Part shown: piece by piece, positions 4,299-34,049 of the stretch | Numbering within the stretch: position 1 is the stretch's first letter | Layout: every line of letters begins with the position of its first letter | Assembly: GCA_016872725.1 (NCBI GenBank) | Contig: VGZC01000023.1 | Span: forward strand, 1 to 64,000 | Length of the DNA stretch: 64,000 nt | Origin: Planctomycetota bacterium | GTDB taxonomy: Bacteria; Planctomycetota; Planctomycetia; Pirellulales; Pirellulaceae | Reading direction: 5' to 3' | The notes under the pieces: model-generated | The model's input: only the letters and a program-made list of their open reading frames with translations | Database searches by the model: none | What the model was told of the DNA's origin: nothing | Translations under genes and position numbers: made by a program

Positions 4299-4308
4299 GC
4301 GATTCTCC

Positions 4309-6372: not shown

Positions 6373-6768
6373 GACTCACCATTTTCCACGCGAGAGGAAC
6401 GCCGCGCCAGCTTCAATAGGAGGCTCGGCGAGACCGCCGGGCGCGCAAGACAATTTCAATGTATCGAGGCCTCCGGCGCCTTACAACGCATTGGCGCCGC
6501 CAACCCCGCGAAAAACGGGTCACCCGCGTTCGGTTTAACGGTTGTGCCTGATTCCCATGGACGTCCGATGACCGCGGATGTGACCGATGATTGTCACTCA
6601 TACATCCCGCAAAAACCCCCCAGGCCTCCCAAGCCCCCAAGCCGGATCGGCTTCGACGGGTGAGCGCCGTATCGGGGATTCCAGCCCGCGTGCGAACCAA
6701 CGCGGGTGTGTGGTCTTGGAGTGCGGCGCGGAGTGCAACACGGCACGGAGTGCCGTGCGATGGGGGGA
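6373..6768. other. Intergenic region upstream of the GAF-HlyD gene
   Basis: I see no credible gene here. Next to the accessory secA stop lies a hairpin (6739-6757). The part nearer the GAF-HlyD start has a modestly AT-richer patch that could hold its promoter, but I cannot define -35/-10 boxes. Confidence 0.5.
6739..6757 (-). terminator. Possible terminator hairpin after the accessory secA gene
   Basis: CACGGCAC / GTGCCGTG form an 8-bp perfect stem with a 3-nt loop, starting 12 bp past the minus-strand stop codon. There is no clear T-run after it (TTGCAC...), so it may only slow transcription or protect the mRNA 3' end. Confidence 0.4.
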
Positions 6769-8715: not shown

Positions 8716-9107
8716 CTTGCCCTCCCGCTCCCGCTGACCGGGGTTTTGGGATTCCCGCGGTCGGCGTCCCACCGAACCGTCCGAATCGCCCGCGCCGCCT
8801 TCCTTCAATTTACCAGTGAATCCCAGGGCGTGCGATGAACGGGTTGATGCCGCGCGGGGTTCCGCCGAGCGACCTTGGGTGCAGGCCGCAGTTTTTGCTC
8901 AATCGTCATAACGCGTTTTGCCGAATGAACAGTAGGAATCCGACCAACCCGCATTTCGGGCGTCTTGCGGAGGTCTGGGAAAACCAGACAAGCTCCGAAG
9001 AACGCCTCGGATGCGGTTCAAGCCGGTTTTGCTTGAATTTCACGTTATACCGGCCGATCTGAATTGAACGGATAGGCGGACCGCTCCATCCACGCGGGAA
9101 ATACGCG
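8716..9107. other. Divergent intergenic region between accessory secA and the BBP7 gene
   Basis: I see no gene here. The region becomes AT-richer towards the plus-strand start (gaatttcacgttatacc near 9036-9052) and probably holds the BBP7 promoter and leader. No reliable -35 box can be assigned. If the TTG start at 8808 were used for secA, this region would be shorter. Confidence 0.5.
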
Positions 9108-15082: not shown

Positions 15083-17812
15083 CTACGAGTTCCCCGGATT
15101 CCCTCGTCCCGTCGACCGAACCGGACCGATCGCCCATCGCCCCGACCCCAACGTCCGCCGACCAAGGCGATTCGACGGCCTGTCATCCGAAAGTCCGCTC
15201 AATAACTCGGACTTGTCCCGTCCCGCGCGCGACGCGTCCGGCCAGACCGCCATCACTCGGTCGACGTCATTCACCTTCGCCGACGCCGGACCCGACCGGC
15301 TTCTCGCCGAGTCAAGAACGGCGGCGGACGGAACGGACCGCTTCGCGCGATGCGATTCTGCGAACGGGGTGAGCGGCGGTTCGCCTTCCTTCGGGGAATA
15401 ATGCGTGGGAAGTGCGGCCGGGTGGAGGGCGATTCGGATCTCGCCGCGCGGCCGATCGCTTTCGGCGTGCGCGTCGGAAACCCGATCCGGTCCGAGGTTC
15501 GACCGCCCACCCGCGTCTCCCGAACGGCCCCCCGACGCCCCGTCTTGGGACTCGCCGGAACCCGACCCTTGGCTTTGGGAAAGGAACGTCAACAGGCGGA
15601 CGATATCCTGGGTCGACACGCTTCCGTCGCCCGTGATGTCAAGGTACGGAAAAGGTCCATACGCGTCCGTCGGCGCGGGCAGGACGCGTGAGTGATTGCG
15701 CGAAACGTCGGTGACCAGCAACACCAAATCGGTCGTGGTGACCAGTCCATCCCCATTGATGTCGTGGACTTGCTGGGGGTTCTGCCAGCGATGGGCGGGG
15801 CGGAGTCCGAAATCCAAGTCTTCGGCCGATCCGCCCGAGGCAAGCGTCACCATGTGGAACCCGTTTTCCGGCGTGGTCACCGTCGAGCCGGCCGGCGCGA
15901 CGACCTGGACGCGATAGCTGGCGGCGGGCAACGAGGAGAACCAATACGCGCCTCCGGCTTGGGTCGTCGCGATGGGCGACGGCCCCAATCGGAGTCGATC
16001 GAGTTGCACGGTGGTCCCGCCATATCCGAACGCGCGGACCGAGACGATGTCAGCCGTGGGTCGAGCGACCACCAACGTCGTCGATTGGCCCGCGCTCAAC
16101 AATGAACTCGTCGTCCGCGCGATCCGGTTCCCCGCCGCGTCGTACGCCTCAAGCCGCGCGTAGCTGCCGCCCGTTTCCCCCCGCGCGTCGATGGTGACAT
16201 ACGTCCGCGGCGAACCGAACGTCGCACGCAATTCGGCCGATTCGCGCGAAAAACTCAGCGGTGAACCAAACCCGATCGAATCATACGCGAAGACACGGCT
16301 TCCGGTCGGCGCCTGGGTCGTCGTTCGCGACCGTACCGATTCGTCGATGGCGTTGTAGCCGTAGACCGAGAGCGTGACGCCGGGAACCGCTTCGTTCAAG
16401 AGGCTCGAATCGTTGTAATTGTCCGGCTCCACCGTCGTCTGGAGAGCCGCGAGATCCCCGTTCGCGTCGACCAATCGAACCGTTTGCTGGGTGAGGCCGG
16501 CATCCTTGGCGTCCCGCGTTCCATCGCCGTCGGGATCATTCCAGACCAAGCCCGATAGACCTTGCGCGTCGGTCAATGCCGCGCCGTTCGTCGCGCCGAC
16601 GAACAGGGGTGAAGCGGTGACGAGTTGCCCGGTGATCGGATCGATCGTCACCGTTCGAATGGCGATCGCGCGCACTCCCGAGGGAACCGTGATTCGCAGG
16701 TCCAGATCGGCCGTATGGGTTCCGTAGCTCGCGGCCGTCTGCCACGCGCCCCCATCGATCCGATACTCGGCCCGCGTAATCGTATTGATGGTGAGATCGC
16801 TCTGCAAGCCGCTCGAATTCCGGTTCAGGAGCGTGCCGACCTCGGCCGTCCCCCGGAACCGGTATTTGCCGATCGCCGGATCGTAGTACCCCGCGCCCCG
16901 CAGCACATGGGGCACATCGAGCACATCAAAAACGCCGTCCGCGTCCGAGTCCTGCCATCCGAGTTGGGCCAGCGTGCTCGGGGCGCTCGTGTGATTCTCG
17001 TACGCGTTGAACATCCGCGTACCGGCCGCCATGATGCTGTCCTGTTGGACGAACCCAGGGGTCGGATTGTCGGCCGCATTCCAGTTCTGCGTGTCGTAGT
17101 AACCGCGACGATCGGAATAGCTGCCCCCGCCGTCATATTCGTCCCGCGCCCAAAAAATATGCCCCGTCTCGTGGGTGATCGTCATGGCCGGACGACGGGA
17201 CGGCGTCACCAGGTACCGCCCGCCCGGATAGGCGAACGCCTGCGAAAAACTGCCTCCCGCCCGAAACTGGCCGTCGACGTCGTTCTGCGCGTTCACGACG
17301 AAAATCGTGAACGCCCAATTCGTATCGTGGTTCCCTCGCAGCGCGTTGTTGTAGAGGCGAATGTCGTCGTCAAGGCTGAGCGGCGAGTCATAGCCCACGA
17401 AGCCGAGGAACTCGCCGATCCAGAGCCGCGAGTCGTCCGAAACCCGCGAGATCGGCTCGTACGCCGTCGGAACGGGGTTGTCGGCGTAGGTGAAGTCGAA
17501 TCGGAAATCGAGCGAGTGGACCGAATTCCGTTCGGCGAGCGTCTGCTCCCACCATTCGACGCCCGTAACGACCTTGGCTTTCGCGTCGGCGATGAGCTGC
17601 GGGGTCCAGTTCTCGGTGCTCGCGTCGATCTGACCGTTCGATTCGAGCAAGACCACGCCGACCGTCACCGTCCCCATCATGAATTCGGCCGTGTCCTGCG
17701 GGTGGGCGCCGAACGGAACGGCGGAGAGCAGGGCGCGGCCTTCGAGCCGTTCCAGCGCGAGGCGGCGCGGACGTTTTCGGGATCGTCGCCGATGGGGCCG
17801 TTCCAAGGTCAT
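15083..17812 (-). CDS. Exported zinc metallopeptidase with dockerin repeats
   Basis: About 909 residues from the ATG at 17812, chosen because a GGGAGAG site precedes it and the LEPR-XLL-type signal LALERLEGRALLSA follows within 35 residues. The open frame extends upstream but reads as Arg-rich noise. The catalytic domain (about 50-370) carries HETGHIFWARDEY with H214, E215, H218 and a likely third ligand D224, plus a Met-turn-like DSIM. The spacing HExxHxxxxxD resembles snapalysin-type metzincins. An SdrD-B-like segment (GLVWNDPDGDGTRDAKDAG) and beta-sandwich stretches follow. A dockerin pair lies at about 680-750 (DINGDGLVTTTDL, LDITGDGSVSTQDIV). The last 150 residues are low-complexity and do not end in the acidic tail seen in its neighbours. 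It is probably a secreted, calcium-dependent protease. Confidence 0.8.
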   Translation of the reverse strand: MTLERPHRRRSRKRPRRLALERLEGRALLSAVPFGAHPQDTAEFMMGTVTVGVVLLESNGQIDASTENWTPQLIADAKAKVVTGVEWWEQTLAERNSVHSLDFRFDFTYADNPVPTAYEPISRVSDDSRLWIGEFLGFVGYDSPLSLDDDIRLYNNALRGNHDTNWAFTIFVVNAQNDVDGQFRAGGSFSQAFAYPGGRYLVTPSRRPAMTITHETGHIFWARDEYDGGGSYSDRRGYYDTQNWNAADNPTPGFVQQDSIMAAGTRMFNAYENHTSAPSTLAQLGWQDSDADGVFDVLDVPHVLRGAGYYDPAIGKYRFRGTAEVGTLLNRNSSGLQSDLTINTITRAEYRIDGGAWQTAASYGTHTADLDLRITVPSGVRAIAIRTVTIDPITGQLVTASPLFVGATNGAALTDAQGLSGLVWNDPDGDGTRDAKDAGLTQQTVRLVDANGDLAALQTTVEPDNYNDSSLLNEAVPGVTLSVYGYNAIDESVRSRTTTQAPTGSRVFAYDSIGFGSPLSFSRESAELRATFGSPRTYVTIDARGETGGSYARLEAYDAAGNRIARTTSSLLSAGQSTTLVVARPTADIVSVRAFGYGGTTVQLDRLRLGPSPIATTQAGGAYWFSSLPAASYRVQVVAPAGSTVTTPENGFHMVTLASGGSAEDLDFGLRPAHRWQNPQQVHDINGDGLVTTTDLVLLVTDVSRNHSRVLPAPTDAYGPFPYLDITGDGSVSTQDIVRLLTFLSQSQGSGSGESQDGASGGRSGDAGGRSNLGPDRVSDAHAESDRPRGEIRIALHPAALPTHYSPKEGEPPLTPFAESHRAKRSVPSAAVLDSARSRSGPASAKVNDVDRVMAVWPDASRAGRDKSELLSGLSDDRPSNRLGRRTLGSGRWAIGPVRSTGRGNPGNS

Positions 17813-17915
17813 GCTCTCCCTGATCCTAACCAGACCCCCTCGATGCCTCAAGGAATCCGTATTTCGCACGCTGGGAAACGTAGGAATCCCCGGCGAATCG
17901 TAGCGGTTAAGACAA

Positions 17916-17954
17916 GAAACGGAGAAAGGAGGGTTCCTCCTCCTTTCTCGTTTC
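17916..17954 (-). terminator. Hairpin after the giant surface-protein gene
   Basis: gaaacggagaaaggagg and cctcctttctcgtttc pair over 16 bp with a single bulge, 31 bp past the stop codon of the 5354-residue protein and upstream of the next minus-strand gene. No long T-run follows, so either a Rho-independent terminator or a bidirectional 3'-end stabiliser is possible. Confidence 0.6.
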
Positions 17955-17984
17955 CTTCGTACCTTGGACGACGCGGCGCGCCGA

Positions 17985-20900
17985 TTAGTTGCCGAATTCC
18001 GCGAAGAAATCGTCCACCGCGCCGGCATACGCGTCGGCCGATCGATGGTCGGCAAGCGACTTGAGCAGATCCTCATCCTGATGCCGGGACGCGTCGAGTG
18101 GGCCGATGGCCGTCCGCCCGATATCCGCGAACGGCGTCTCGCTCCGGGCCGGCAGTCGGAAGGTGACTTCCCGCACCGACCTGGACGACGACGGTCGCCT
18201 CGCGGCACTCCCCGAATCCCCGGTTGCCTCGTCGCTGGCCGCGACCGACGCGCGGCCGGAGCTCGAAAGGTCGGACGTCGAGACAACGAACGACGTGGAT
18301 GCCCGATCGCCTTCCACCGAACGCGCCGGTTCGTTCGCCGAGTCCACGTCGAGCGCCGCCGACTCGCCCTCTCCGACGCCCCGTGTCCGGACGTACCTCA
18401 GGACATCGAAAAGGTCTTGGGTCGTGGCGCGGGTGTCGCCGTCGACGTCGATCATGAAACGCGTCGCGAAGATCTGCTTTCCGCCGGCGGCCACATAGGG
18501 CGGAACGGCGGGAAGTGCGACCGAACCGTAGCTTTGCAGGAACCGCAGCAGGAGGAGCACGTCGAACGGCACGACGCGCCCGTCGCCGTTCACATCCTGA
18601 CGCAGGGCTCCGTTCTGCCATGGGCTCGAACTGACCGTGACCTGATAGTCCTCGACTTCACCGTCGGCCGCGTCGCCGAACGGCGCGAGGCCGCCGACGC
18701 TGCTCATGCGGAATCGCGCGTACGTCCCTCCCAATTTCGTCGTCGTCGGCAATGTCACGGTGAACGTGTTGGCGCCGTTGGCGAGCACGGCCCGATTCAG
18801 GATCTGTTCACCGGCGTCGTTCCAATCGCCGTCACCGTTGAGATCGATCCAGGCGTCGAGATATCCGGGCATGGCCGCCGTGATACCGCTTGCCGCGACG
18901 ACGATCGACGAGGCATAACCCCGCACGAGCGTGCCGAATGTCACACCATCCTCGTCGTCCGATGCGTCGGCATCATCACCCGTCGCCCCGATCGTCGGCT
19001 GGCCGTCGACATCGACATCGACCGAATCCCCAAGGCGGTAACCGCTGACGATCGCATGCCGAGCTCCATTGTCGGTGAGCAGGGTCGGGTATCCGAGCGT
19101 CTGGGGGGCGTCGCCGAAGTCGAGTCCCGATCCGAGTTCGATCGTGAATTCGGTCGTGCCGTCGTCCTGGTTCGGCCGGAGCACATTCCCGGCGATGTCG
19201 CGGATGCCCGACACGAAGACCTTCACGATCCCGCTGACGCTCGTCGCGCCGCTGATCAACACCTGATCATCGCGAACGGTCGCCGATACGCCGTCGAGCG
19301 CCGTGTTGGCGTTGATCAATTGGCCGATCAGCGCGGCCATGGCGGCCGCCGTGAACGAATCGTCGGGCACATAGTTGATCGGTACGGCCGCATCGACACC
19401 CGGAGTGCCCAATTGGGTCAATGGGCTCGTGAGCCCGTTGAAGGAATGCGACGGCGTGTCCCCGTTCAGAAGTACCCGACCGCTTCCCACGCTGACCGCC
19501 GTCACGCCCAAACCAACGCTGTTGATCGCCTGCGCCATCGCGTTCGCGATCTGCGTCAACGTCGGATCGGTCGCCGGAATGCGGACAATCGTGTTGCCGG
19601 GAACGACCACATTGTCGGAATCGAACTCGAACGTCACCGGCAGACCCACACCGTTTCCGATCCGGAATGTCTGCCCATCCAGGATTCCGACCGGCTTCCC
19701 GGCGGAACTCGGGATGAGGATTCCGAACTCCGGTCGAACGCCCGGCTGCCCCGCTTGCGTCAGCCGGCTTCCGCTCGTGTTGAGCACGGTCAGCAGATTG
19801 CCGCCGACGTGGACAACGCCGAGTCCGTAATGCGTCGGATTGAGGCCGACCGCATAGGTGCGGATCGCATTCGCGAATTTGTCGGCGATCTGTTCGTACG
19901 TATCGGCTTGTCGAATGGGAATCGTCGTGTTTCCGGCCGCCGACTTGCCGTCGATGTCGAACTCGAACGTCTGGAGCGTCGCTCCGTCGTCGAGCGTGAA
20001 CGTGTCGCCGTCTCCGACCCCCCCGTTCACCGACCCGGTCTGGGTCAGGCTCGGCGCGTTCGTAATGTCGACGACGTGCGACGAGAGCGTTCCGACGTGC
20101 ACGACGCCCCGTCCGAGGTCGACCGGTTCGAGCTTGACGTTCGCGTCGATCAAGGCCTGAACGACGGCGGCCGCGAGCTGTTCCGACGAATACTGCGGCG
20201 TGAAGACGATCGGCTGATTGCCGGCCGCCACGCTTCCGTTGTTGTCGAACTCGAGCGTCACCTGCTTCGAGCCGTCCGAAACGCGGAACGACTGGCGGTC
20301 GGTCATGCCACCAAGCCCGCCGCCGGCGGCGGGCATCGTGAGCGCCAATGTCGGCGCCACCGTCACCGTATATCCCGACTCGAATTCAAACGTCGCCGTG
20401 TTCCCTTGTCCGTCGGTCACATCGAATCGACTTCCGTCGGCGACCCGGTCGCCCGCCGGCGCGGTCACGATGAACTGGTCCTGATTCGTCATCTGGATGC
20501 GGTACGTGTGGTTCGTTTCCCAGATGCCCGCGATCGGAGTAAGCCGAATGACATCGTTGAGCGCGTCGTAGCGGAACCGGTAATCGACACCCTCGGTCAG
20601 ACGCACGCCGTCCCGCAGGAGGGTAAGCTGTTCCTTGATGACCGAACGATCATCGATGCCCGATCCGTTGACCGCGTCGATCGGTTCAACGCCGTCGATC
20701 AGTTGGATCGAGAAACCCTCGAGCGATACGACGGACAGCTTGACGATCGTCAACCGGCCGTCGAGATCCTTCCCTTGCGAGTCGTTGTCGCGGGGGTCGA
20801 GCAAGAGGGCCGACGGACCGCCGAAATCGACGCGATCGAGCGCGCCGCGGTCGATATACACGTTCTCGCCTGCGCCCGGCGGCGGCTCGACCGTCGGATC

Positions 20901-23900
20901 GTCGCCGCGGAGTTGACCGAGTTGATCCCGCGCGGGAGCGAGGATCGGCGAGACGGGGATCCCGATCGCGCCTTTGACCGAGACCAGAGCGGGGCGATCG
21001 GTGAGCGAGTTGATGCCGCTGTCGATCGCCTGCGACCTCGATGCCAGATAGAAGTTACCGATCGCCGGTTCCATGAAAAGCGGTTCACCCGGCTGGACGG
21101 TGATTGCGTAGCTTCCAAGCGTACCAGTGGAATGGACGCGGTTTCCCTGATAGAGCGTGCCGCCGACCACGGTCGTGCTCGACGATGCGTCAATCCTCAG
21201 CCCCGTGTCGAAGTTCGCGATGACGTTGTTCAGGAGGGTCGGGCTCGCGTTGTTTTCGACCAGGATACCCGTATCGGCGCCTTGGCGGCCGTACACCGTG
21301 TTGTTGACGATGCGCCCGAAGGGAACCGAGGCAATCTGGCCCTGCGCGTTCGTGTTCGCGTCCCCGGAGTAACGGATGCCGCCCGCGACATTCGCGTACA
21401 CGATGCTGTTCTCGACCACGACGCCGGGAACCAGCCGCTGGGCGTTGACTTCACGGGTCACTCGGGTCGCGCCCTGGTGCGGCGTTCCCTCGGGTCCGTC
21501 GCGCCGACCCGAATCGATGTCGACGCCGAATCGCGCCGAGTTCGAAACCCGGCTCGACGCGATCACGAACTGACCTTGATCCCTCGTCAGATTGCGGTCG
21601 CCCAATCCCGACGTCTGTTCGAAGGCGATGCCTCCGGACCGCGACGTGACCTCGATGGCGTATTCGCCCGTGCTGAGCCCCGCCGTGCCGCTCGCCACCG
21701 TCTCGATGTCGTAGGTCTGGTTATTGTACGCGCTGATCCCGATGAAATAGGTTCCCGTCACGGGGATCACGAAGTCGAGGTAGGGATCGAGGGTGAACGG
21801 CTCGCCCGGGGCGGGCGTGTCATCGCTGATCGCGAGCTGGTTTCCGGCGACGTCGAAGAGACGGAGCATGCCGTCGAGGAACGAACCGTTCAGCGCCGCG
21901 TCGATGTCGACGGTGACCCGGGTCCCGGTCGTGAACTGGAACTGGAGCAGATCGACATCGAGCGAGGCGTTGTTGCCGACGAGCGTCGGGTTGTCGCCGA
22001 TCCGGCCCGATGCGCGGTAGGTCGACGTGGCGCCCGCGATCGTGTTGGCCCGCACGGCCTGCGGGCGGGCGTCGTTGATCTCGGTCGCCGACGACAGGTC
22101 GCCGACCACGTCCGTGCCCGTAATGCCGCCTACGACCGCGTTGCCGTAGAGGTGCACGCGCGAGTCGGTGCTCGACGTCCCCGAGTTTTCGCCGTCCGAA
22201 AATCCCGCCTTGAGCTTCAGCACGGCCTGGACAGGAACGCTGTTGATCGCGTCCCGAATGCGCTGCGCCATCACCGTCGACGATTCGGCGGTGAACCCGC
22301 CTTTCCCGTCGCTGGCCGCCGGATGGAACAGGATCGGAATATGGCCCTGCGCCACGCCGTTCGCGAGCGACGCGTCCTCGAACTCGAACACGACGCTGTT
22401 CGTGCCGTCGCTCAGCGTGAACGTCTGGCCGTCCGTGATCTGATGCGCCGCCGGCGCCAGCAGCGTGTGCTCCTCCGAGAACCGGTAGTTCGTATCGAAT
22501 GTGTCGGGCAGCAGGGGCGTCGGAACCGGCGCGGGATCGGCGATGCCGTAGTCGGTGCTCCGCCGGATTTCGAGCTGATAGTCGCCGACGAGGATCTGGT
22601 TATCCGGAAGTACGGGGTTCGCGATGAATGCCGTGGAGTCAGCCGCCGAACCGGTGACCATCTCGCCGCGCTCGGCGAACCCGATCACAATGTCGTCGAC
22701 ATACACGCCTTCGAAGTCGTTGTTCTGGGCGCGCAGCGCGCCCGGATTGTTGGCGTCTATCGTTCCGTCGAAACGGGTCGATGCGTAGAACGAGCCGAAC
22801 GGGTCGCCGACCTGTGACCGCGTCAAGCCGAGCGGACCCGGCGCGGAGACGTTGTGGCCGATCACCCGGACGCGCGTCCGATCGACGGGGAACGCGGAGA
22901 GTTCGCCGCCCGCGTACGCGTCGGCGAGCGCCTGCTGGACGACGCCCGCGACCTGGGCGGCCGTCATGTCGGCGTGCACGCGGACCGCGTTCGCGCCCGC
23001 CGCGACGCCCGCCGCGCCGTCGATCACCGTCGCCGCGCCGGCGCTCTGCGAGACCTTCACCGCGCCGTCCAACTGGATGCGGTTGTCGTGCAGCCGAGGA
23101 ATCACGCCCGTGAACCCGTTGACCACGATCTCGAGCTCGTACGCGCCCGTGCTGCCGTTGATCGCGAACCCCTCGATGATCGGATTGTAGTTGTCGTTCG
23201 GAGCGCCGCTCACGCCGATGTAGTACAATCCGGTCCGCTGCACGGTGATATCGAGCTGCGAATCGAGGCCGATCGCGTTGTCGTCCAAGGCGAGCGGGAC
23301 ACCCGCGACATCGAAGAGCCGGAGAACTGAATCGAGCGTCGAACCGATCCGCTGGGCGCGGACGTTGACGAGGATATGATCGCCCTGGTTCAGCGCGAGA
23401 CGGACCATGTCGACGTCGAGACCCGGCGTCACGGTGAGATTGGGGTTGTCGCCGATCACGCCGAGCGCGCGGAAGATGTCGGCGCCGCCGAGCAGACCCG
23501 TGTTCACCGAGGTCGACATGACCTCGTTGCCCGTCGTTTCGGCCCGCAGATCGGCGGTCATCGTGTAGTCGGCCGCGCGCAGCGCGTTCTCGATCGTCGA
23601 GGCGATCGCGCCCGCCGACTGCGTCGCGTCGAACGGAATGCGGATGTTCGAACCCAAAACGCCGTTGCCCGAATCGAATTCAAAAGTCCGGCTGTGGATC
23701 GTGAACGTCTCGCCGTCCGTCAAATGGGCTCCGGTCGGCGCCACGAGCGTCGAGCCGAGATCGAATTCAAACACGTCGCCGCCCACGATCATGCGCTGGC
23801 CGTCTCGGACGTCCCGGCCGTCGATCGCGTGCAGGAACTGACCCGTCGAATTGACATTGCCGACATTGAGCGATCCGGCCGTGCTGAAATCGAACTTGAT

Positions 23901-26900
23901 CCGCAGGTTCCCGCGGCCGGCGAACGGCGCGAGATTGACCCGCGCCTGGCGCCAGCTATCGGGAGCCCCGTTGTCGCCGACGTCATGCAACTCCTGCACA
24001 TCGACAGTGATTCCGTCCGCCGTGAAGTCGTCGTACTCGTCGTTCGCCCAGCCCGTTCGACGCCCCGAGTTGTTCGTCGCGACAAGTTGCCATTCGCCGT
24101 CGTCGTCGGCCACGAACACGCGGAACGCGTCGCGCATGTACTGCGGCGGGTTCACGCCCAGCACGGCGCTCGCATTCTCCGTCGCGAGACGGTAGTTGAA
24201 ATACAGCGTCGGCAAGTCAATCGACGAGTATCCCTTCAGGCTGAACGGATTCGAAACGAGCGAGCCGTGCGCGCCGCCCGGGAAATCGAAGTCGTTGACG
24301 TTGTTGACCGGATTGTAAAACGGATCCACCGAAACGTTGTTGCGCGCTTGCGATTCCCACCCAAACCAGAAACTGCTGCCCCCGTCGACCGCCCGCCGGC
24401 TCCCGTCGAACGGCTGGTTGATGCCGTGGCCGGCGTTGGTGTCCCGGTTGTTCGTCACGTGCCAAAGGTTCGAGTCGAGGATCGAGAAGGTCAGGCCGTT
24501 CGCGGCGAACACGCCCGTGTCGATCGAGGATTGACCGTCGATGAAGAGGGGGAGCAGGCTCCCGTTCGTGTCGAACGCGTAGATCCGGCCGTTCCCGGTG
24601 ATTCCGAACAGGACGTCTTGGTACAGGCCGTTGCCGAGATTGCGGGGCCCGGCCGCCAAGCCCTGGAACGCGATGCCGAGCAGGTCGGTCGCCGTATCCA
24701 CGTAGTCCACGAACGCGCCCATCGGCGCGTGCGGATTGACCACGCGGTACAAGCCGCCTCGATCGCTGACCGCATACAGGGCCGATCCGAGGAACGCGAG
24801 GCCCGTCACGTTGCCGCCGGGCGCGGCGCCCGCGATCTTGAGCGGCGGATCGTCGGTTTGATTGGGATCGAACCGGGCACCGCCGCGCAGCGACACGACG
24901 GTCCCGTTCGTATTCACCAAGACACCCGCGCCCGAAATGGCGTTCGCCATCCGCGCCGCGATCTGGCTGCCCGAATCCTCGGCGAGGAACGGAACGGCGA
25001 TCGCCGCCGGATTGTTCGGCAGATTGTCGTGCCCCAAATCGATGGCGACACCCCGCGCGACGAGCTCCGTGAAGCTGCCGCCCGCCGGTCCCACGAAGTT
25101 CACGCGGTTCCCGTCCGTTCCCACCGTGATTCCGGGAACGCCCGGTACCGGCGGCGGACCGACCTGCCCATTGAACACGCGCCGCAGATTCTGTGTCAGC
25201 TCCGCGTTCAGACTCACTTCCTCGATCGGAATCAGCACCGTGCCCGGCGGATTCGGGAGTCCGCGCGACGTGCTTCGGCCCGTATTGCCCGAAATGCTCG
25301 TGCCGAGCGACGTCTCCGTCGCCGAAGTGCTGCTCAGCAGGCTGATCCGGTTCGACTGCAGAAGGGCCTGCGCCGAGGCGGCGTATCCGCCGAGCCCCGT
25401 CTGGCTGTTGATCGCGTTCACGGCGGCCGTGACCAGCGCGGCCTGGTTCATGCCGACGTTGAAATTCACGCCGATGACGCTGCCGCCGAGCGGCGGGCCC
25501 GATCCGTTGTCCCATTCAAAAATCCGGGTCACCGGAACCAACTGGTTGTCCGTGACGGTGAATCGGTCTCCATCCGTAATGAAATTCCCGCTCGCCGCGT
25601 CGATCACGAACACCTCGCCCGTGTCGAACTCGTAGGGAACCGAATCCAGGAAGAACGTGTCCCCGTCCCGAATGTAGGCTTGGTTCGGCAACCGGTTCGG
25701 CGCGAGGCCGACCGTGATTTCGGGTCCGCTCACGAACTCAAAGTAGGTCGTGGCCGCGCCGTCGAGCACTGTGAATCGCGTGCCGTCGAGAATGATCGGC
25801 GTGGTGACGCCCAGCGAATCGACGTTCGTCGCCTCCGGAGCGATGATCACCGTGTCCCCCGTCGAAAAGGGATCCGCGTCCGTGATCAAATGGCCCCGCT
25901 CGACGATCTGCGTGCCGGCGCCCTGCAACAGGCCCGTGCCCGTCCGGTCGGACGCCGGATCGCTGATCGCGTCTCCCGTCGCCGGAAGGAACTCGTACAT
26001 GATGTTGCTCGTGTACGCGATCCCCGGAGGCCGTACTCCGGCCGGACGCCCGCCGACCGCGAAACCGCGTTCGGTATTGTCGCCGATCTGGCCGAACGTG
26101 ATGGCATCGAAGTGGATCCCGTGCCCGATCCGGTTTCCATTCACGAGGTTGCTTCGGATCGCGTTGCCCGGATTCGCGGTGTCCTCCTCGTACGTCTCAA
26201 TCCCCGACGCGCCGATATCGGTCGTCGCGGCGGTGCCCGTGTCGATCTGGAAGTAGATCCCCGTCGTCGCGTCGGCGGGGGGCGGGTTCTCCAAGTCAAG
26301 CGAGTACGACATCAGGTCGCCGTTGGGCCGCATCGCGATGTCGCCGACATCGTAGTTGAATCGGCCGACCTGCGTCTCGCGCTGGCCGGTGAACGGGTTC
26401 ACCGTGAAAAGATTCGTCTGGTCCCGCGTTCCCGGGTCCTGGCTCACGTAGAGCGTGATGTCGCCGAGCGTCCAGGGAACGACGCTCGAATCGTCGAGCA
26501 GCACGGGAACGAGGGGCGCCGACGCGGTCCCGCCGCCGCTCGAATTGATGTGGTCCTCGGCGATCCGCTGGATCGAGTCGACCGGTTCGAGTCGGGCGAG
26601 CGCGTTTGACGGATTCGCGAGCGAGAATTGCCCGAGGTCGGTCGGAACCCGCGCGACCGACGAAACGGCCACGTTGTAGGTGCCCACCGGGAGTTCCACG
26701 GTTCCAAGGAATGGATCGAGGGCCCCCGCCGTGCCTCGAGACAGGTCGTCCATGTTCGCTCCCGAAATGGGAGCCGGACGGTCCTCGGCGATGTTGCTGT
26801 CGTTCGCGACAAGCACGAGATTTCCGGCGGCATCAAACACCGAAAGCATCGTGTTCGGACGGCCGAGCCCGTCGGCGTAGTCGACGTCGAATGTCGTCGC

Positions 26901-29900
26901 CACGTACTGTGGATTTGTCGCCGTGCTCTGCGACTGCACCTTCATGTACCGAACATCGAACTGAAAGAAGTCGACGTCGTTCGCGGAACTCAACGCGCCC
27001 GACGTTCCGAGCGCGGCGCGATCCGTCTCCATCAGATTTCCGACTTGCTGCGCGTCCACGACGAGGTCGTTCGGCGAAGCATCCTCGCCGATCTCACCCG
27101 TCAGCGGCGAGTGGATCGACTGGCCGCGCACCTCGATGCCCGTCCGCGCGTATCGGATATCGGCGCCTCGGATGACCGAACCGGCGATTTCATCCAATTC
27201 GCGCAACCGGACCTGAAGCTGATAGACGCCCTGCGTCCGCCCTCCGTCGAGCAGGCTCAGATCGGGTCCGTTGCTCCGCACGCGCGCGTAATACGTCCCG
27301 CGTGATCCCTTGATGCCAGGAAGAACGACCCGCATTCCCGCGTCCCGCGGATTCGTCGTCCACCGATCCTCTCCCTCGAAGACCGATTTCTGAAGGATGT
27401 TCACGGCGTTCGACGGGAGACTCGGATCTCGCACAAGCAGATTCGGATTGGCGCCTTCCGCTGCCGAGTCGTTCGATCGGGCGAGGACTTTGCCGTCGGC
27501 GTCGACCAGTTCCAGGACCGTATCGAGCGCGTGCGTCGTCCGATCGATGTCGAACCACGCCTCGGTGCCCGCCTCGGCCGTGAACCGGTACACATCCACG
27601 TCGTAGGGGCTGTTGATCGCGCCGTGCACGGTGAACCCGAGCCGCAACTTGTCGTCGCCCGCCTTCTCGTGCGGCGCCAATTCCCCGAGGAACTCCGCCG
27701 TTCCCGGCGTGCCGTTCGTATTGGGAATGACGCTGTCGAACGGTTCGATCTCGGTGAGCACATCGACGTTGCGGTCGTGGCTGTACGTGTCGAGCATCAC
27801 GCTGCGCCAATCGCCGGGCGCCGCCGGATTGCCCCCAGCCTGCTCGACGATCGAACTGACCATCGCGCGGCTGAAGCTCGTCGCCGTCAATCCGCCCGCC
27901 GAAATCTGATAGATGTCGCCGACGATCCCGCCGGTCGCGAAGACCATGTTCGCGTAATCGGGTACCGTGGTGTCCCAGCCAGGGAGAATCTGGCCGCCCG
28001 GAGACGTGGTGAACCCGCCCGCGCCGTCCTGCTGATAGGCGTTACCCTGCGAGTCGATCGCCATCGCGCGCAGGCCCTGCGCGTCGACGATCGAGACGCC
28101 GAGGATACCTTCGAGCTTGACGCCGGCGGCCTGCAGTTTGGTGAGCGTGTTCTGATACGTCAGCGTCGAATCGAGCTCGTCGCGGTCCTCGTCCGTCACC
28201 AGGATGGCGAACTTCGCCGACTCGGGTCGGTACGAATACGTATCGACCATGAAGTGCAGCCCTTGCCAGCCGTCCTCCCACGATCCGCTCGTCGAAAGCG
28301 TCTGTGCCGCGGCCGCGTACTCAGTCGACGTGCCGAACAACGCTCGGCCCGCTCCGACGGGCACCGCCCGCGCGTAGTCGTTGATGTCGCCGTAGCCGAC
28401 GAGCCCGAACCGATTGATGCCCTTCGAGCCGTCGCCGATACCGGCGGCGGCGAGCGACGCGTCGAGGTCGGCGATCATGCCGATCGAGAACTGCTGCGCC
28501 GAATACATCGAGTCCGATTCGTCCATGACCACGATGACGTCGGCGTAGGGGACGGACGTCGCGCCGCCGCAAAGTCCCGTGTTCGCGGTATCGGTCTGCG
28601 GGCTTCCGTCCGGCGTGAACCCCGCGCCGACGCTGCAGTCGTTCAGCGACGTCACCACGACCGGATGCCGCGGTTGGCCGAGCACCCGGAGCGCGCCGCC
28701 GATCCGGTCGTCGATATCGAGCGGAGCGCCCGTCGCCGTGAACCCCGCATCGGGACCGAACGCCTTCACCACAAGGCTCTGATCGGCCTTGCTCGCCAAC
28801 CGCAGTCCGCCGAACGAATGGAAATCGGGAATCTCGATATTGCCCTGCATCACGTGGACGATATCCGTGTCGTCCCACACGCCCTCGGTGTTCAGCGTGC
28901 CTTCGCGCACGACCATCGCGTTGATGTCGTTATTGTGCAGTCGGTTGCCGGAGACGAGCGGGCCCTGGTTGCCGAACACGCCGCGATACACGTTGGCGGT
29001 TCCCGTCGCGCGACCCAGGTCGTTGACCAGATTCGAATTCAGCGCGTTGACGTTGGCGTTCAGCGCCGGCGCGGCATTGTCGCGCAGGATGCTGTTCACG
29101 ATGACGGGCTGGGCGCCCCGAATGAAGATCGCGGCGGGACGGTTGAACCCGAGTCCAAACCGTGATTCGATACTCGCCGGATTGTTGTCGGCCGGTTGGA
29201 ATCCGTCCGCATTGCGTTCGAAGACCGAATTCGCGACGCGCGCGTCGGCCTGATGGATCTCGAGCGCGTTGATGCTCCGGAAACTCCCGCCGATCCGCGC
29301 CATGCCGCCGCCGTACGCGACGATGGTGTGGTCGAAATGGAGCGACGACGCGGGTCCGGCGACGATGCCGCCCCAGTCGCCGGGCTGCGCGACGTGCGTC
29401 GCGCTCAGGTTGTTCGTATTGAACGTGCCCCCCGCTCCGTAGCGTTTGTCGGCGAGCGACGTGAAGACGGCCCGATCTCCGTCGACACCCTCGGCGATCA
29501 AGTGCGCGCCCATGCCCACATGAATGTACGCCGCCTCGCTCTTGACGATCGTCCCCGGATCGAGCCGCAGGCGCGCGTCGAGCCTGCCGCGGACGATCTC
29601 GTCGAAATCGGCGAGCGATCCGCCGACCGTCGTCCCGTCGTCGGTGAACGATGTCGACGTTCCGTTGATCTGGGCGACCAGCGCATACGGTCCGAAACCG
29701 CCCGGCGTGCTCCGATAGATCCGCCGCGCCACGTTGCCCGGGAACCGCGCCACCGTCGGCAAGTTCGACAGCACGACCGTGCCGATGTTCGGCGCGCCGT
29801 TCGTGTCGGGGTTGCCTTCGACCACCACGTCCGACGTGACGTCCGACGCGGGACCCTCATTGCCGTTCACATCGACGAACGTCATGCGGTAGTTGTAGGT

Positions 29901-32900
29901 TCCCGGAGTCAACATCCCACCGACCGCCGTGCCGGGTAGCGCCGTTACGAGCGTCACGGGAGGGGCGATCGATTCGAGGATCGGTCCGCCCGGCGTTCCC
30001 GCGATCGCGAGATTCTCCTGAAGGACATGCACGATGTCGGAATCATCGAAACGCGCGGAAACGGTCAGCGATTCGGGCGCGGCGCCCGGCGCCGTGCGCA
30101 CCCGAACGAACAGGCCATTGATCGTGTTGTCCGTCTCGCGATTGCCCGTCGCGTCGAGACCGCTTCGCGTATAGTCCGACGTGAACGCTCCCGATACCTG
30201 GTACTCCGGCGCGTGGAAATTCGATTCCTCGAAACTGTTCGGGTTCGCCGATACGGCCGCGTGCGCGCTCCGCGCGATCCGGTTGTACGCGATCGTCGGC
30301 CGCGAATCGACGATGTGGATCGGGTCAACCAGCGTGGGGATGCCGTCGACCGTGACGTTGCCGCCTCCGTACCGCATGTCGGCGAACGTCACGTTGTTGA
30401 GGAAAATACCCTGCTTCTCGTAGCTGAACCGGTTCGCGTCGCGCGAATCGAGGTCCGCGCGCATCACGATGCCGCCCCAATCACCGGACAAAGCGGCGGG
30501 CGGCTTGCTGTCCGGATTGGTTCCAACGCCGATCTTCTCGTGCAACGACGTGAAGACCACATTCCCCTCGATCGTCTGGCCGGTCGAATCGCGCCGCACG
30601 GCGCCCGCCGCGTCGACCACGCGGGGCGTGCCAAGGACCTGCAGCGCGCCGGCGCTGCGGTCGATCGACGGCGAGGAACTCCCGACGCCGATCCGCGCGC
30701 GGCGCATCTTGATCATCGCGCCCGAGTCGATCATGACGGTGACGCCCTTGGGAACCTCCAGGGTCGAACCGTCCGCCAACACCTGCCCGCCCAATGCGCT
30801 GAAACCGACCTCGTACGCGAGGTTGTCCTTCAACGTCGTGATGTCGCCGTCCGCGCCGCCGTTCCCCACAATTCGGACGATGTCGCCGGCCCGCGCGGCG
30901 CTGATCCCCGCCTTGATCGTGTTGAACGGCGCGGCGAGCGATCCGTCGGAAACGGCGCCTCTGTAGGCCTTGTCGACGAAGATCGTCCGAGCGGCCGCCT
31001 GGACGCGGAACCACGTGTTGTACACGCCGCCCGGCACGCCGTCCGCGTCGCCGTCGAGCGGCGTGGACCTCGAAAGGGCCGACGCCGTCGGCGTCGTCGC
31101 GTTGTCCGCGTCGATCATGCTGCTCGTCGCCTCGCCACGGAAATTCAGCCGCAGTTGGTAGAGGCCCTCCGAGCGCCCGCCGATTCCCGTATCCTCGACA
31201 CTCGGGTCGTACTCGTCGTTCCCGCTCGCCGATACGCCGATGTAGTAGGTGCCCGGTTCGAGCTGCAGTTCGAGGTACGAGTCCTTGCTGAAGTAGTCGT
31301 CGTTCCGCGCGACCAACTCGCGCCTCGTCGGCGTTTCGCGGTAAACGGCCAGCACCGTGTTCAAGCGGCTGTCGTTCGGCAATCGCTCGGCGATCGTCTC
31401 CGCCGTGAAGAGGCCCTTCTGCGGAACCTCGAATCTGAAGAGATCGATGTCCTTGCTCTCGGGCCGATAGAGATACTGGCCGTGCACGATGTCGTGGTCG
31501 CCCGGAAAGACCGGTTCGGCCGTCGCCGACACGGCCTGCGCGAACCCCGACATGACGGTCAGCGCGGGCAGTTCCGTGTCGTGGCCGAGCCGGAGCAAAT
31601 GGCCGATCTCGTGCATGGCCGTCCGGAAAAACAGCTCGCCGTATTCGTCGTTCTGATCATCGAAATCCTGCAGGTCCATCACGAGGCGGCCGGTCAAACC
31701 GCCGGAAGCGACGCCGAGCACGCCGCCGGGACCGGTCGGGATGGTGGGATCGAGCGCGCGCAGGTCCCCGACGGCGATCGTCATGCCGCGCGTCGCGCTC
31801 TCGATGAACTGAATCCCGAAATAGCTCCCGTAAAGCTCGTAGATCTCGCGCACACGCTCCTTCTGCACGTCGGTGATCGCGTTGCGGAGAACGTTGCCCT
31901 GCGGGTCGAACCCGTAATCGCTCTGGAAGTTGTAGTACGCCGTCGTGATCCCGCTCGTCGCGTCCGGACCCGAAAGGTAGTGATTCTCGACAAGGTAGTG
32001 ATTCTCGACGGGAATCGTCCGGTGCCCCGCCTCCTCGATGTCGCCCGGGAACGTCAAATCGTACGGCTGGCCGCCGTTGTCAATCGAACCGGAGACGATC
32101 AACCCCTCGCTGGATTCGGCGATCGCCGTCATCGTCGGGGAAAGGACGACGCGCTGATCGTTCGCCAGATAGACGCGATTGCCCAGGGCCGTCGCAATGA
32201 CGCCCATATTCACGTTGTTGATCGCGTTGGCGAGCGATTGGGCAATCTCGTCGGGCGTCGATCCGGCGCTGAACGCCACCGGTTCGCGCCCCGCCAGAAC
32301 GCCCGTCGGCCCTCGGAGCGTGTCCTCGAACTCGAAGATCCGCTCGGTCCCCGCGCGGCTCGCCACCGTCACCGTCTGCCCGTCGCTCAGCGCCGATCCG
32401 TCGTCCCGCACCACCAGCACGGCGCCTGTTTCAAACCGGGAAACCACATCCAACGCCGTCGCGAAACTCGAACCCGCGTCCGAACCGGGATCGTAGGCGA
32501 CCGGCGCCAACGGAAGCGCTTCGTCGGTTCCGATCCTCAGCCGGAACGTCGCCGCGACCTGCGGACCCAGCAGGTTGTCCAAGTCGGCCTCGAACGTCAA
32601 CACGGCTCGATCGGCCGCCGCGTCGTACGCGACCGATACGGGCCGAAACGTCGTGTCGTCCGTGTTCCGGACCGTGTCGTTCGTCGCAATCAGCTGATAG
32701 AAATTCGGGTTCTCGGCCGACGCGCGATCGAGATCGTCGTCGTTGAAATAGACGTGGACCTGATTGCGGGCCTGAACCAGTGCCCCCGCCGCATTGCGCG
32801 AAACGGGCATCGGCACGACCGAAAGGACCCGGGCGCCAAGATCGAGTTCGAACGAAAGCGACGTGTTCGCTTTCCCCTCGAGGTACACGTTGCCCGAAAG

Positions 32901-34049
32901 ATCGGAGACGGGCTGCCGACCCGCGCCCGCGCGACCCAAGATGTTCACTCGGTACGTGTCGTCGATCAGCGTCTCCGCGAACCGGAATACGGCGACGTTC
33001 GGAGATTCGCCGAGCCCCACGTATCCGGGCGTCAAGACGAAGTCGGTGGCGCCGAGCAGCGTCACGTCGGGAATCGCCTGGCTGGTGATGAGTCGAGTCG
33101 AACCGGCGCCCGCGACGAGACTCGCGCGCGCCAGTTGGCTCGCCTGGGGATGCGCGTTGATCGCGCCGATCAGCGCCGAAGCCGTGGTTTCGTTGCCGGC
33201 GTTCGAGTTCAAGACGACGTCGATCCGCCGATTGAGCGGATCGGTCGCGTCGACCGTGATCCGGGGAGCGCCCGCTCCGCCGAAATCGCTCTTCGCGAAC
33301 GTCAACCGCACGCCGTTGCCCGCGACCCCCGCGCCGACCGCCATGAACTCGATCTGCAGCGAGTTCCCCTGGTTGACGTCGCTCGTGCCCCGCGCCTTGT
33401 TCGCGCCGGTCAACGTGAGCGGCGAATAGTTGATGTCGGGGCTCGCCACCGCCGTGAACGCGTTGCCGCGCACGATCGACGCCGTCACCAATTGGCTCGC
33501 CAACGGATGCGCGTTGATCGCCGAACGCAGGTCCGACGCCGTCGTCAACGCGCCGAACGTCGAATTCAGGTCGACCTTGATCGTCGCGCCCTGCACGTCG
33601 ATCCCGACGCCGCCACCGATCCCCCGCGCGTTCTTGCTCACGACGAGCGCGATGCCGTCCCCAGCACTCCCCGCCTGCCTCGCGGAAAACTCCATCACCA
33701 CCGCGCCGCCCGTGTTCAGATCGGTCCGCACCGATGCCGACTCGAACGCGCCGTCCAACCCGCTCCGAAGGATCTCGATCCCGCTCGATAAGGTCGCCTC
33801 ATTCAGACGCGCCCCGTCGTTGAATCGGAACTGCAATTCCTTCGGACCCGTGTTGAACACGAGCCCGTCACGGAGCAGAGACCCCTGATTGGTCGCGATT
33901 CCGGCAAGCTCCAAACCGGCCATCAGACGGCGATCCTCGAGCGCCTCCATCTGAAGGTCCCGGCTCGTCTTCCGACGGTCCAACCTCGCGCGCCGTACGC
34001 GGCGATAGGATGCTCGAGCCAACTGCGATCGCGTGGAACGGATGGTCAT
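17985..34049 (-). CDS. Giant 5354-residue multidomain exported protein (matrixin-like motif, PPC, beta-helix, VWA, GEVED, dockerin)
   Basis: The Arg-rich N-terminus carries EALEDRRLMAG at 35-45 (LEPR-XLL-type signal). Visible in order: a duplicated segment with INAHP(L/Q)ASQL (about 110-300); repeated FEFD-type modules; a metallopeptidase motif HEIGHLLRLGHD near 813; a PPC-like domain just after it (LEPGTYYIGVSASGNDEYDP); parallel-beta-helix-like stretches; a VWA domain near 1835 with MIDAS DESDS and later VTDEDRDEL; more PPC-like and FEFD modules; a GEVED domain near 5070 (DAWIDLNGDGDWNDAGEQIL); a dockerin pair at about 5146-5210 (DVNGDGRVVPFDV, IDVDGDTRATTQD); and an acidic tail (SADAYAGAVDDFFAEFGN). 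It is secreted or surface-bound. Peptidase, adhesion and calcium-dependent folding roles are inferred from the motifs. No stop or frameshift was seen across 16 kb. Confidence 0.85.
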   Translation of the reverse strand: MTIRSTRSQLARASYRRVRRARLDRRKTSRDLQMEALEDRRLMAGLELAGIATNQGSLLRDGLVFNTGPKELQFRFNDGARLNEATLSSGIEILRSGLDGAFESASVRTDLNTGGAVVMEFSARQAGSAGDGIALVVSKNARGIGGGVGIDVQGATIKVDLNSTFGALTTASDLRSAINAHPLASQLVTASIVRGNAFTAVASPDINYSPLTLTGANKARGTSDVNQGNSLQIEFMAVGAGVAGNGVRLTFAKSDFGGAGAPRITVDATDPLNRRIDVVLNSNAGNETTASALIGAINAHPQASQLARASLVAGAGSTRLITSQAIPDVTLLGATDFVLTPGYVGLGESPNVAVFRFAETLIDDTYRVNILGRAGAGRQPVSDLSGNVYLEGKANTSLSFELDLGARVLSVVPMPVSRNAAGALVQARNQVHVYFNDDDLDRASAENPNFYQLIATNDTVRNTDDTTFRPVSVAYDAAADRAVLTFEADLDNLLGPQVAATFRLRIGTDEALPLAPVAYDPGSDAGSSFATALDVVSRFETGAVLVVRDDGSALSDGQTVTVASRAGTERIFEFEDTLRGPTGVLAGREPVAFSAGSTPDEIAQSLANAINNVNMGVIATALGNRVYLANDQRVVLSPTMTAIAESSEGLIVSGSIDNGGQPYDLTFPGDIEEAGHRTIPVENHYLVENHYLSGPDATSGITTAYYNFQSDYGFDPQGNVLRNAITDVQKERVREIYELYGSYFGIQFIESATRGMTIAVGDLRALDPTIPTGPGGVLGVASGGLTGRLVMDLQDFDDQNDEYGELFFRTAMHEIGHLLRLGHDTELPALTVMSGFAQAVSATAEPVFPGDHDIVHGQYLYRPESKDIDLFRFEVPQKGLFTAETIAERLPNDSRLNTVLAVYRETPTRRELVARNDDYFSKDSYLELQLEPGTYYIGVSASGNDEYDPSVEDTGIGGRSEGLYQLRLNFRGEATSSMIDADNATTPTASALSRSTPLDGDADGVPGGVYNTWFRVQAAARTIFVDKAYRGAVSDGSLAAPFNTIKAGISAARAGDIVRIVGNGGADGDITTLKDNLAYEVGFSALGGQVLADGSTLEVPKGVTVMIDSGAMIKMRRARIGVGSSSPSIDRSAGALQVLGTPRVVDAAGAVRRDSTGQTIEGNVVFTSLHEKIGVGTNPDSKPPAALSGDWGGIVMRADLDSRDANRFSYEKQGIFLNNVTFADMRYGGGNVTVDGIPTLVDPIHIVDSRPTIAYNRIARSAHAAVSANPNSFEESNFHAPEYQVSGAFTSDYTRSGLDATGNRETDNTINGLFVRVRTAPGAAPESLTVSARFDDSDIVHVLQENLAIAGTPGGPILESIAPPVTLVTALPGTAVGGMLTPGTYNYRMTFVDVNGNEGPASDVTSDVVVEGNPDTNGAPNIGTVVLSNLPTVARFPGNVARRIYRSTPGGFGPYALVAQINGTSTSFTDDGTTVGGSLADFDEIVRGRLDARLRLDPGTIVKSEAAYIHVGMGAHLIAEGVDGDRAVFTSLADKRYGAGGTFNTNNLSATHVAQPGDWGGIVAGPASSLHFDHTIVAYGGGMARIGGSFRSINALEIHQADARVANSVFERNADGFQPADNNPASIESRFGLGFNRPAAIFIRGAQPVIVNSILRDNAAPALNANVNALNSNLVNDLGRATGTANVYRGVFGNQGPLVSGNRLHNNDINAMVVREGTLNTEGVWDDTDIVHVMQGNIEIPDFHSFGGLRLASKADQSLVVKAFGPDAGFTATGAPLDIDDRIGGALRVLGQPRHPVVVTSLNDCSVGAGFTPDGSPQTDTANTGLCGGATSVPYADVIVVMDESDSMYSAQQFSIGMIADLDASLAAAGIGDGSKGINRFGLVGYGDINDYARAVPVGAGRALFGTSTEYAAAAQTLSTSGSWEDGWQGLHFMVDTYSYRPESAKFAILVTDEDRDELDSTLTYQNTLTKLQAAGVKLEGILGVSIVDAQGLRAMAIDSQGNAYQQDGAGGFTTSPGGQILPGWDTTVPDYANMVFATGGIVGDIYQISAGGLTATSFSRAMVSSIVEQAGGNPAAPGDWRSVMLDTYSHDRNVDVLTEIEPFDSVIPNTNGTPGTAEFLGELAPHEKAGDDKLRLGFTVHGAINSPYDVDVYRFTAEAGTEAWFDIDRTTHALDTVLELVDADGKVLARSNDSAAEGANPNLLVRDPSLPSNAVNILQKSVFEGEDRWTTNPRDAGMRVVLPGIKGSRGTYYARVRSNGPDLSLLDGGRTQGVYQLQVRLRELDEIAGSVIRGADIRYARTGIEVRGQSIHSPLTGEIGEDASPNDLVVDAQQVGNLMETDRAALGTSGALSSANDVDFFQFDVRYMKVQSQSTATNPQYVATTFDVDYADGLGRPNTMLSVFDAAGNLVLVANDSNIAEDRPAPISGANMDDLSRGTAGALDPFLGTVELPVGTYNVAVSSVARVPTDLGQFSLANPSNALARLEPVDSIQRIAEDHINSSGGGTASAPLVPVLLDDSSVVPWTLGDITLYVSQDPGTRDQTNLFTVNPFTGQRETQVGRFNYDVGDIAMRPNGDLMSYSLDLENPPPADATTGIYFQIDTGTAATTDIGASGIETYEEDTANPGNAIRSNLVNGNRIGHGIHFDAITFGQIGDNTERGFAVGGRPAGVRPPGIAYTSNIMYEFLPATGDAISDPASDRTGTGLLQGAGTQIVERGHLITDADPFSTGDTVIIAPEATNVDSLGVTTPIILDGTRFTVLDGAATTYFEFVSGPEITVGLAPNRLPNQAYIRDGDTFFLDSVPYEFDTGEVFVIDAASGNFITDGDRFTVTDNQLVPVTRIFEWDNGSGPPLGGSVIGVNFNVGMNQAALVTAAVNAINSQTGLGGYAASAQALLQSNRISLLSSTSATETSLGTSISGNTGRSTSRGLPNPPGTVLIPIEEVSLNAELTQNLRRVFNGQVGPPPVPGVPGITVGTDGNRVNFVGPAGGSFTELVARGVAIDLGHDNLPNNPAAIAVPFLAEDSGSQIAARMANAISGAGVLVNTNGTVVSLRGGARFDPNQTDDPPLKIAGAAPGGNVTGLAFLGSALYAVSDRGGLYRVVNPHAPMGAFVDYVDTATDLLGIAFQGLAAGPRNLGNGLYQDVLFGITGNGRIYAFDTNGSLLPLFIDGQSSIDTGVFAANGLTFSILDSNLWHVTNNRDTNAGHGINQPFDGSRRAVDGGSSFWFGWESQARNNVSVDPFYNPVNNVNDFDFPGGAHGSLVSNPFSLKGYSSIDLPTLYFNYRLATENASAVLGVNPPQYMRDAFRVFVADDDGEWQLVATNNSGRRTGWANDEYDDFTADGITVDVQELHDVGDNGAPDSWRQARVNLAPFAGRGNLRIKFDFSTAGSLNVGNVNSTGQFLHAIDGRDVRDGQRMIVGGDVFEFDLGSTLVAPTGAHLTDGETFTIHSRTFEFDSGNGVLGSNIRIPFDATQSAGAIASTIENALRAADYTMTADLRAETTGNEVMSTSVNTGLLGGADIFRALGVIGDNPNLTVTPGLDVDMVRLALNQGDHILVNVRAQRIGSTLDSVLRLFDVAGVPLALDDNAIGLDSQLDITVQRTGLYYIGVSGAPNDNYNPIIEGFAINGSTGAYELEIVVNGFTGVIPRLHDNRIQLDGAVKVSQSAGAATVIDGAAGVAAGANAVRVHADMTAAQVAGVVQQALADAYAGGELSAFPVDRTRVRVIGHNVSAPGPLGLTRSQVGDPFGSFYASTRFDGTIDANNPGALRAQNNDFEGVYVDDIVIGFAERGEMVTGSAADSTAFIANPVLPDNQILVGDYQLEIRRSTDYGIADPAPVPTPLLPDTFDTNYRFSEEHTLLAPAAHQITDGQTFTLSDGTNSVVFEFEDASLANGVAQGHIPILFHPAASDGKGGFTAESSTVMAQRIRDAINSVPVQAVLKLKAGFSDGENSGTSSTDSRVHLYGNAVVGGITGTDVVGDLSSATEINDARPQAVRANTIAGATSTYRASGRIGDNPTLVGNNASLDVDLLQFQFTTGTRVTVDIDAALNGSFLDGMLRLFDVAGNQLAISDDTPAPGEPFTLDPYLDFVIPVTGTYFIGISAYNNQTYDIETVASGTAGLSTGEYAIEVTSRSGGIAFEQTSGLGDRNLTRDQGQFVIASSRVSNSARFGVDIDSGRRDGPEGTPHQGATRVTREVNAQRLVPGVVVENSIVYANVAGGIRYSGDANTNAQGQIASVPFGRIVNNTVYGRQGADTGILVENNASPTLLNNVIANFDTGLRIDASSSTTVVGGTLYQGNRVHSTGTLGSYAITVQPGEPLFMEPAIGNFYLASRSQAIDSGINSLTDRPALVSVKGAIGIPVSPILAPARDQLGQLRGDDPTVEPPPGAGENVYIDRGALDRVDFGGPSALLLDPRDNDSQGKDLDGRLTIVKLSVVSLEGFSIQLIDGVEPIDAVNGSGIDDRSVIKEQLTLLRDGVRLTEGVDYRFRYDALNDVIRLTPIAGIWETNHTYRIQMTNQDQFIVTAPAGDRVADGSRFDVTDGQGNTATFEFESGYTVTVAPTLALTMPAAGGGLGGMTDRQSFRVSDGSKQVTLEFDNNGSVAAGNQPIVFTPQYSSEQLAAAVVQALIDANVKLEPVDLGRGVVHVGTLSSHVVDITNAPSLTQTGSVNGGVGDGDTFTLDDGATLQTFEFDIDGKSAAGNTTIPIRQADTYEQIADKFANAIRTYAVGLNPTHYGLGVVHVGGNLLTVLNTSGSRLTQAGQPGVRPEFGILIPSSAGKPVGILDGQTFRIGNGVGLPVTFEFDSDNVVVPGNTIVRIPATDPTLTQIANAMAQAINSVGLGVTAVSVGSGRVLLNGDTPSHSFNGLTSPLTQLGTPGVDAAVPINYVPDDSFTAAAMAALIGQLINANTALDGVSATVRDDQVLISGATSVSGIVKVFVSGIRDIAGNVLRPNQDDGTTEFTIELGSGLDFGDAPQTLGYPTLLTDNGARHAIVSGYRLGDSVDVDVDGQPTIGATGDDADASDDEDGVTFGTLVRGYASSIVVAASGITAAMPGYLDAWIDLNGDGDWNDAGEQILNRAVLANGANTFTVTLPTTTKLGGTYARFRMSSVGGLAPFGDAADGEVEDYQVTVSSSPWQNGALRQDVNGDGRVVPFDVLLLLRFLQSYGSVALPAVPPYVAAGGKQIFATRFMIDVDGDTRATTQDLFDVLRYVRTRGVGEGESAALDVDSANEPARSVEGDRASTSFVVSTSDLSSSGRASVAASDEATGDSGSAARRPSSSRSVREVTFRLPARSETPFADIGRTAIGPLDASRHQDEDLLKSLADHRSADAYAGAVDDFFAEFGN

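Follow-up and report, generated by a model that had tools for sequence, protein, structure and literature searches.

The question raised by this locus is what the recurring FEFD segments of one giant planctomycete protein are, and what they contribute to that protein. The window (the whole stretch of DNA analyzed, 64,000 nucleotides of contig VGZC01000023.1 from a member of the Pirellulaceae) encodes a giant open reading frame (ORF) in which the original prediction described at least seven segments with DG turns and an FEFD or FEFE strand, spread along the chain, as a possible unnamed domain. The ORF and the full copies identified in it are as follows.

17985..34049, minus strand: giant FEFD-bearing ORF, a stop-free frame of 5354 aa
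32148..32399, minus strand: FEFD unit 1, residues 551-634; leave-one-out 35.5 bits
25314..25586, minus strand: FEFD unit 2, the most divergent, residues 2822-2912; leave-one-out 11.9 bits, the weakest
23514..23732, minus strand: FEFD unit 3, residues 3440-3512; leave-one-out 29.6 bits
22128..22451, minus strand: FEFD unit 4, with loop insertions, residues 3867-3974; leave-one-out 31.5 bits
20085..20315, minus strand: FEFD unit 5, residues 4579-4655; leave-one-out 41.8 bits
19794..20027, minus strand: FEFD unit 6, residues 4675-4752; leave-one-out 48.7 bits
19452..19694, minus strand: FEFD unit 7, fold predicted singly, residues 4786-4866; leave-one-out 38.0 bits; pLDDT 93.4

Exactly seven full units were found, spanning window positions 19452-32399 (residues 551 to 4866), and models built from six units recovered the held-out seventh in every case (11.9-48.7 bits), whereas the best score in the reversed giant protein and 50 shuffles was 3.0 bits. 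The FEFD segments almost certainly form one family, as had been claimed; comparison of the leave-one-out scores with the shuffles also rules out chance similarity among the copies.

The pattern originally proposed for the segments holds in its FEFD core and its two DG turns. Among 273 distinct aligned units, the F, E, and D of the FEFD core are conserved at 93%, 91%, and 75%, and the D of the two DG turns at 79% and 64%; the core of the family is the F-E of FEFD plus the two DG turns. The invariant columns over the seven window units are D, E, and A. The (A/I)NS ending is present in some copies only (INN, INS, ALRA, INS, ALID, AIRT, and INS in order), unit 5 opens with DRQSF rather than DGxxF, and the copy placed near residue 4560 is itself an N-terminal half unit (residues 4536-4564), the full unit beginning at residue 4579. 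This fragment is one of several half units, which are listed here together with a conserved array.

25689..25793, minus strand: N-half fragment, hairpin only, residues 2753-2787; i-E 0.0012
20358..20444, minus strand: N-half fragment, residues 4536-4564; i-E 1.4e-6
24891..25025, minus strand: C-half fragment, residues 3009-3053; i-E 6.7e-7
22866..23024, minus strand: C-half fragment, residues 3676-3728; i-E 1.6e-5
19260..19394, minus strand: C-half fragment closing the array, residues 4886-4930; i-E 9.4e-5
19215..20477, minus strand: conserved array of N-half, three full units, and C-half, residues 4525-4945; same order in other giants

Several giant proteins share the order of an N-half, three or more full units, and a C-half, and a half unit similar to that at residues 4536-4564 opens the array in other giants too. 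The best cross-protein match of a unit sits at the same array position in 91 of 168 comparisons, where chance would give one third. This modest signal suggests that the array is older than the divergence of these proteins.

Scanning of the giant ORF against Pfam identified PPC, VWA, and GEVED domains above their cut-offs and a sub-threshold Dockerin_1 match (21.9 bits, cut-off 22.9), and matches to Matrixin, Planctomycete-extracellular, and Beta_helix were likewise all sub-threshold. The best PPC, GEVED, and Dockerin_1 matches lie at residues ~2150-2200, 4031-4107, 5063-5138, and 5151-5219, and none overlaps an FEFD unit; the best stretches of all Pfam matches in the ORF likewise show no overlap with any unit. 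The segments are thus not PPC, GEVED, or dockerin domains, as the original prediction had stated. No curated Pfam or NCBIfam model scanned covers an FEFD unit above its cut-off, and the Pfam scan detected neither a flagellar nor a tail-sheath domain in the ORF.

Two other regions of the ORF were noted in passing. A metzincin-like domain near the N-terminus (window about 31560-31865, minus strand; Pfam Matrixin 17.3 bits vs. a cut-off of 24) has an intact HEIGHLLRLGHD motif. A second tandem domain lacking a name occupies window positions 33444-33728 and 33081-33386 (minus strand; residues 108-202 and 222-323). It features an ‘AINAHP’ helix, has 11 copies across 8 proteins, and weakly resembles FEFD units (hhalign probability 31) and Flagellin_IN (55).

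Prediction of the fold of one unit, which had been proposed as a check, gave a confident model for unit 7 (AlphaFold2 with 54 rows; pLDDT 93.4, pTM 0.83) with the order b1-b2-b3-helix-b4-b5. The module, ~80 aa or ~100 aa with two trailing strands (b6-b7), is predicted to fold on its own. The single unit matched the PhiTE sheath (Z 5.8), FliC (4.9), the A-1(L) sheath (4.6), and the Kp9 nozzle (4.3) in the PDB, scores that are middling by themselves. A model of the array (residues 4525-4945; nine rows, pLDDT 84.7), which includes the trailing strands, best matched the Sf14 tail (9c3b; Z 9.8, 91 residues, 2.2 A), next PhiTE (Z 9.4), and then the T7 nozzle, Mu, Milano, FliC, and FliD. Nearly every one of the 50 rows listed is a sheath, nozzle, flagellin, or FliD protein, and unrelated-looking rows score lower (GbpA 5.4, YajQ 4.0). 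Foldseek returned H. pylori FliD (E 1.3e-5), and BFVD a viral protein (E 3e-5). The domain is unnamed in the sense that no curated model covers it, but the predicted fold is not new: it matches that of a decoration domain known from the flagella of bacteria and the tails of phages. The link between flagellum and phage in this fold was already known, since the insertion domain of the XM1 sheath has been reported to resemble FliD (PMC10457771). Our literature search found no description of the FEFD module or of a planctomycete link to the flagellum/phage fold.

Similarity to the same proteins was also detected at the level of sequence. Flagellin_IN (PF07196) scored 14.9 bits on unit 7, the only window copy with a score shown, against a cut-off of 22.7, and 10.3 bits on the second half of the giant ORF (E 0.87 over the last unit). 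Among 54 single units, six matched PF07196 at E <=1 (best E 0.00069) and 12 matched the PHROG_165 tail sheath (best E 6.4e-6). Alignment of the FEFD profile with Flagellin_IN by hhalign, in which the latter was represented by 30 matches from planctomycete genomes, gave a score of 29.3 (probability 86) over 41 columns from b3 to b5, and 200 column shuffles, a mild control, reached 14.3 at most. A search of PDB sequences with the FEFD profile ranked unrelated FMN oxidoreductases beside flagellin (E about 0.002).

A profile built from the seven copies, the other check originally proposed, was positive in 18 of 294 Planctomycetota genomes sampled, and a 54-row profile in 69 of the 196 genomes from the window’s order, among them nearly every sampled member of its family. 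A scan of 84,980 species genomes with a sequence pattern, its reach set by that pattern, returned 38 loci, of which 36 were planctomycete-named and two were titled only “bacterium.” In total, 67 proteins yielded 287 full matches, along with 42 N-half and 51 C-half matches. Most units occur in frames several thousand residues long; the source genome itself encodes a second giant (L045, G000:C66) with many FEFD units in a frame of 6533 aa.

The seven-copy profile also detected the unit in other protein contexts. These comprised FlgE hook proteins of ~960 aa from another planctomycete family (L057, L061, L062, L063, and L094; E 1e-8 to 1e-13 at Z=10000), proteins of ~1800 aa with Kelch repeats where scanned (L056 and L064), and, on IMG/VR contigs, tail sheaths (L133, L136, and L138) and a Tail_P2_I protein (L137). 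The IMG/VR proteins were found through a pattern scan of IMG/VR; tblastn with an FEFD consensus against 50,697 phage records yielded no matches. In one phage tail sheath (L138:3752-5647), the unit occupies residues 83-154, before the sheath match. Another match in it, resembling a C-half (267-312), lies near the position that the sheath profile assigns to its own insertion domain.

Because the predicted structure, the profile-profile comparison, and the occurrence of units inside FlgE and tail sheaths agree, the FEFD unit very probably belongs to the superfamily of Flagellin_IN and tail-sheath insertion domains. What counts against the likeness to Flagellin_IN is the sequence score, which is below the Pfam cut-off, as well as the rank of FMN oxidoreductases beside flagellin in the PDB sequence search. 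The sub-threshold score, together with single-unit Z scores below 8, could be read as convergence on a small alpha/beta arrangement. However, the hhalign score is twice that of the best shuffle, one profile detects the unit within both FlgE hook and tail-sheath proteins, and flagella and phage tails supply nearly all top structural rows, so that convergence appears improbable. When the hhalign score is weighed alongside the structures and the protein contexts, common descent is the best reading, and under common descent the FEFD hairpin is the added part. The unit shares with Flagellin_IN a strand-helix-strand-strand core and an A-I-N helix end but has, in addition, the hairpin with the conserved FEFD strand. 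Since its score lies under the PF07196 cut-off, we do not file it there; the description that fits best is a new, planctomycete-expanded family of the superfamily with an extra N-terminal hairpin, DGxTFxIxDG...TFEFD.

The relatives differ from the window protein in their settings. The Flagellin_IN motif occurs in flagellins, FliD, and hook-associated proteins, whereas the window protein has no flagellar domain, although FEFD relatives occur in FlgE. The phage sheath insertion domain (PhiTE, Sf14, Mu, Milano, and XM1) and the T7-type nozzle, which match the array model at Z ~5-9.8 over 76-94 residues, are parts of tube-forming subunits, whereas FEFD units form arrays along one giant protein. 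The D2 domain of flagellin (P. aeruginosa FliC, 4nx9) and FliD D2/D3 are alike in predicted fold but belong to flagellar structural proteins, unlike the giant ORF. FlgE of C. jejuni carries extra domains (D3/D4) that make the Campylobacter hook stronger (PMC5097172), and some planctomycete FlgE proteins hold an FEFD unit. Flagella of R. sphaeroides could not bear motor load after deletions in a part of FlgK that contains at least three PF07196 motifs (PMC7277832).

The contexts of FEFD units that we observed are non-catalytic and of the surface type, which speaks for a spacer role, and the FlgK and FlgE cases serve as precedents for it. An N-terminal motif, the PPC and GEVED domains, and a dockerin-like end indicate that the giant protein is probably extracellular. 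Taken as a whole, the explanation that we favor with reasonable confidence is a superfamily variant that acts as a non-catalytic structural spacer in a giant, probably secreted protein; the spacer role on its own is only slightly favored. Single and arrayed copies would extend and stiffen the chain and bear variable loops facing outward, and these spacers would sit among the metzincin-like domain, VWA, beta-helix, and PPC segments and the C-terminal GEVED-dockerin region. We infer that the FEFD units most likely serve as such spacers in giant secreted proteins of an adhesin-like kind.

The FEFD glutamate is more strongly conserved (91%) than a spacer alone would seem to require, a hint of a metal or binding site. 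The units could accordingly be mainly binding modules, in which the acidic residues of the DG turns (D 79% and 64%) and FEFD (E 91%, D 75%, among the 273 aligned units) hold a metal, likely Ca2+, or contact glycan, and arrays give multivalent adhesion or Ca2+-dependent stiffening. A Ca2+-stabilised ice adhesin does appear weakly among the Foldseek rows, but its probability is 0.03, and the aligned planctomycete Flagellin_IN sequences are without the motif; we consider this reading rather doubtful. It is quite unlikely that the array is an assembly interface instead of a spacer, with half units donating strands to neighboring units or other chains. Half units recur in many giants, the N-half ahead of the array and the C-half behind it, and the N-half comprises strands without a helix in the nine-row array model, as strand donation would have it. 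However, the C-half at residues 4886-4930 is predicted to form a strand, helix, and strands, is close in length to the canonical Flagellin_IN motif, and may fold alone. A possible history, though less likely than not, is that planctomycetes took a flagellum/phage-tail domain, equipped it with the acidic FEFD hairpin, which may be a Ca2+ site, and expanded it in giant surface proteins, while units passed between the phage sheaths, the hook proteins, and the giants of one lineage.

The genes next to the giant gene were also inspected. Downstream (window 1042-8808, minus strand) are genes for three proteins: a short SecA-like ATPase of 679 aa with matches to DEAD, PP_bind, and P-loop, a GAF-HlyD protein, and an M50 peptidase-HlyD protein. 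Two other genera (G205 and G121; the M50-HlyD relative in G205 is incomplete at the end of the stretch examined) have relatives of the whole trio close to FEFD giants, and in G433 and G461 GAF-HlyD and FEFD units share a contig within 30 kb. These proteins may together be dedicated to exporting the giant protein; a literature search found no link of SecA-HlyD-M50 to giant proteins. Two surface-type neighbors, both with a sub-threshold dockerin match, contain SdrD_B (window 15083-18286, minus strand) and cadherin-like Big_9 repeats (10537-14739, minus strand), and relatives of the SdrD_B protein adjoin FEFD giants in several loci.

With these findings, hundreds of segments that lacked annotation in the giant proteins of planctomycetes gain a structural identity, and these giants, the build and function of which are largely unknown, are tied to flagellar and phage-tail domains. 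A profile of the FEFD family would supply annotation for long stretches of giant proteins that are now blank, and the question of spacer versus adhesin becomes testable on a small domain.
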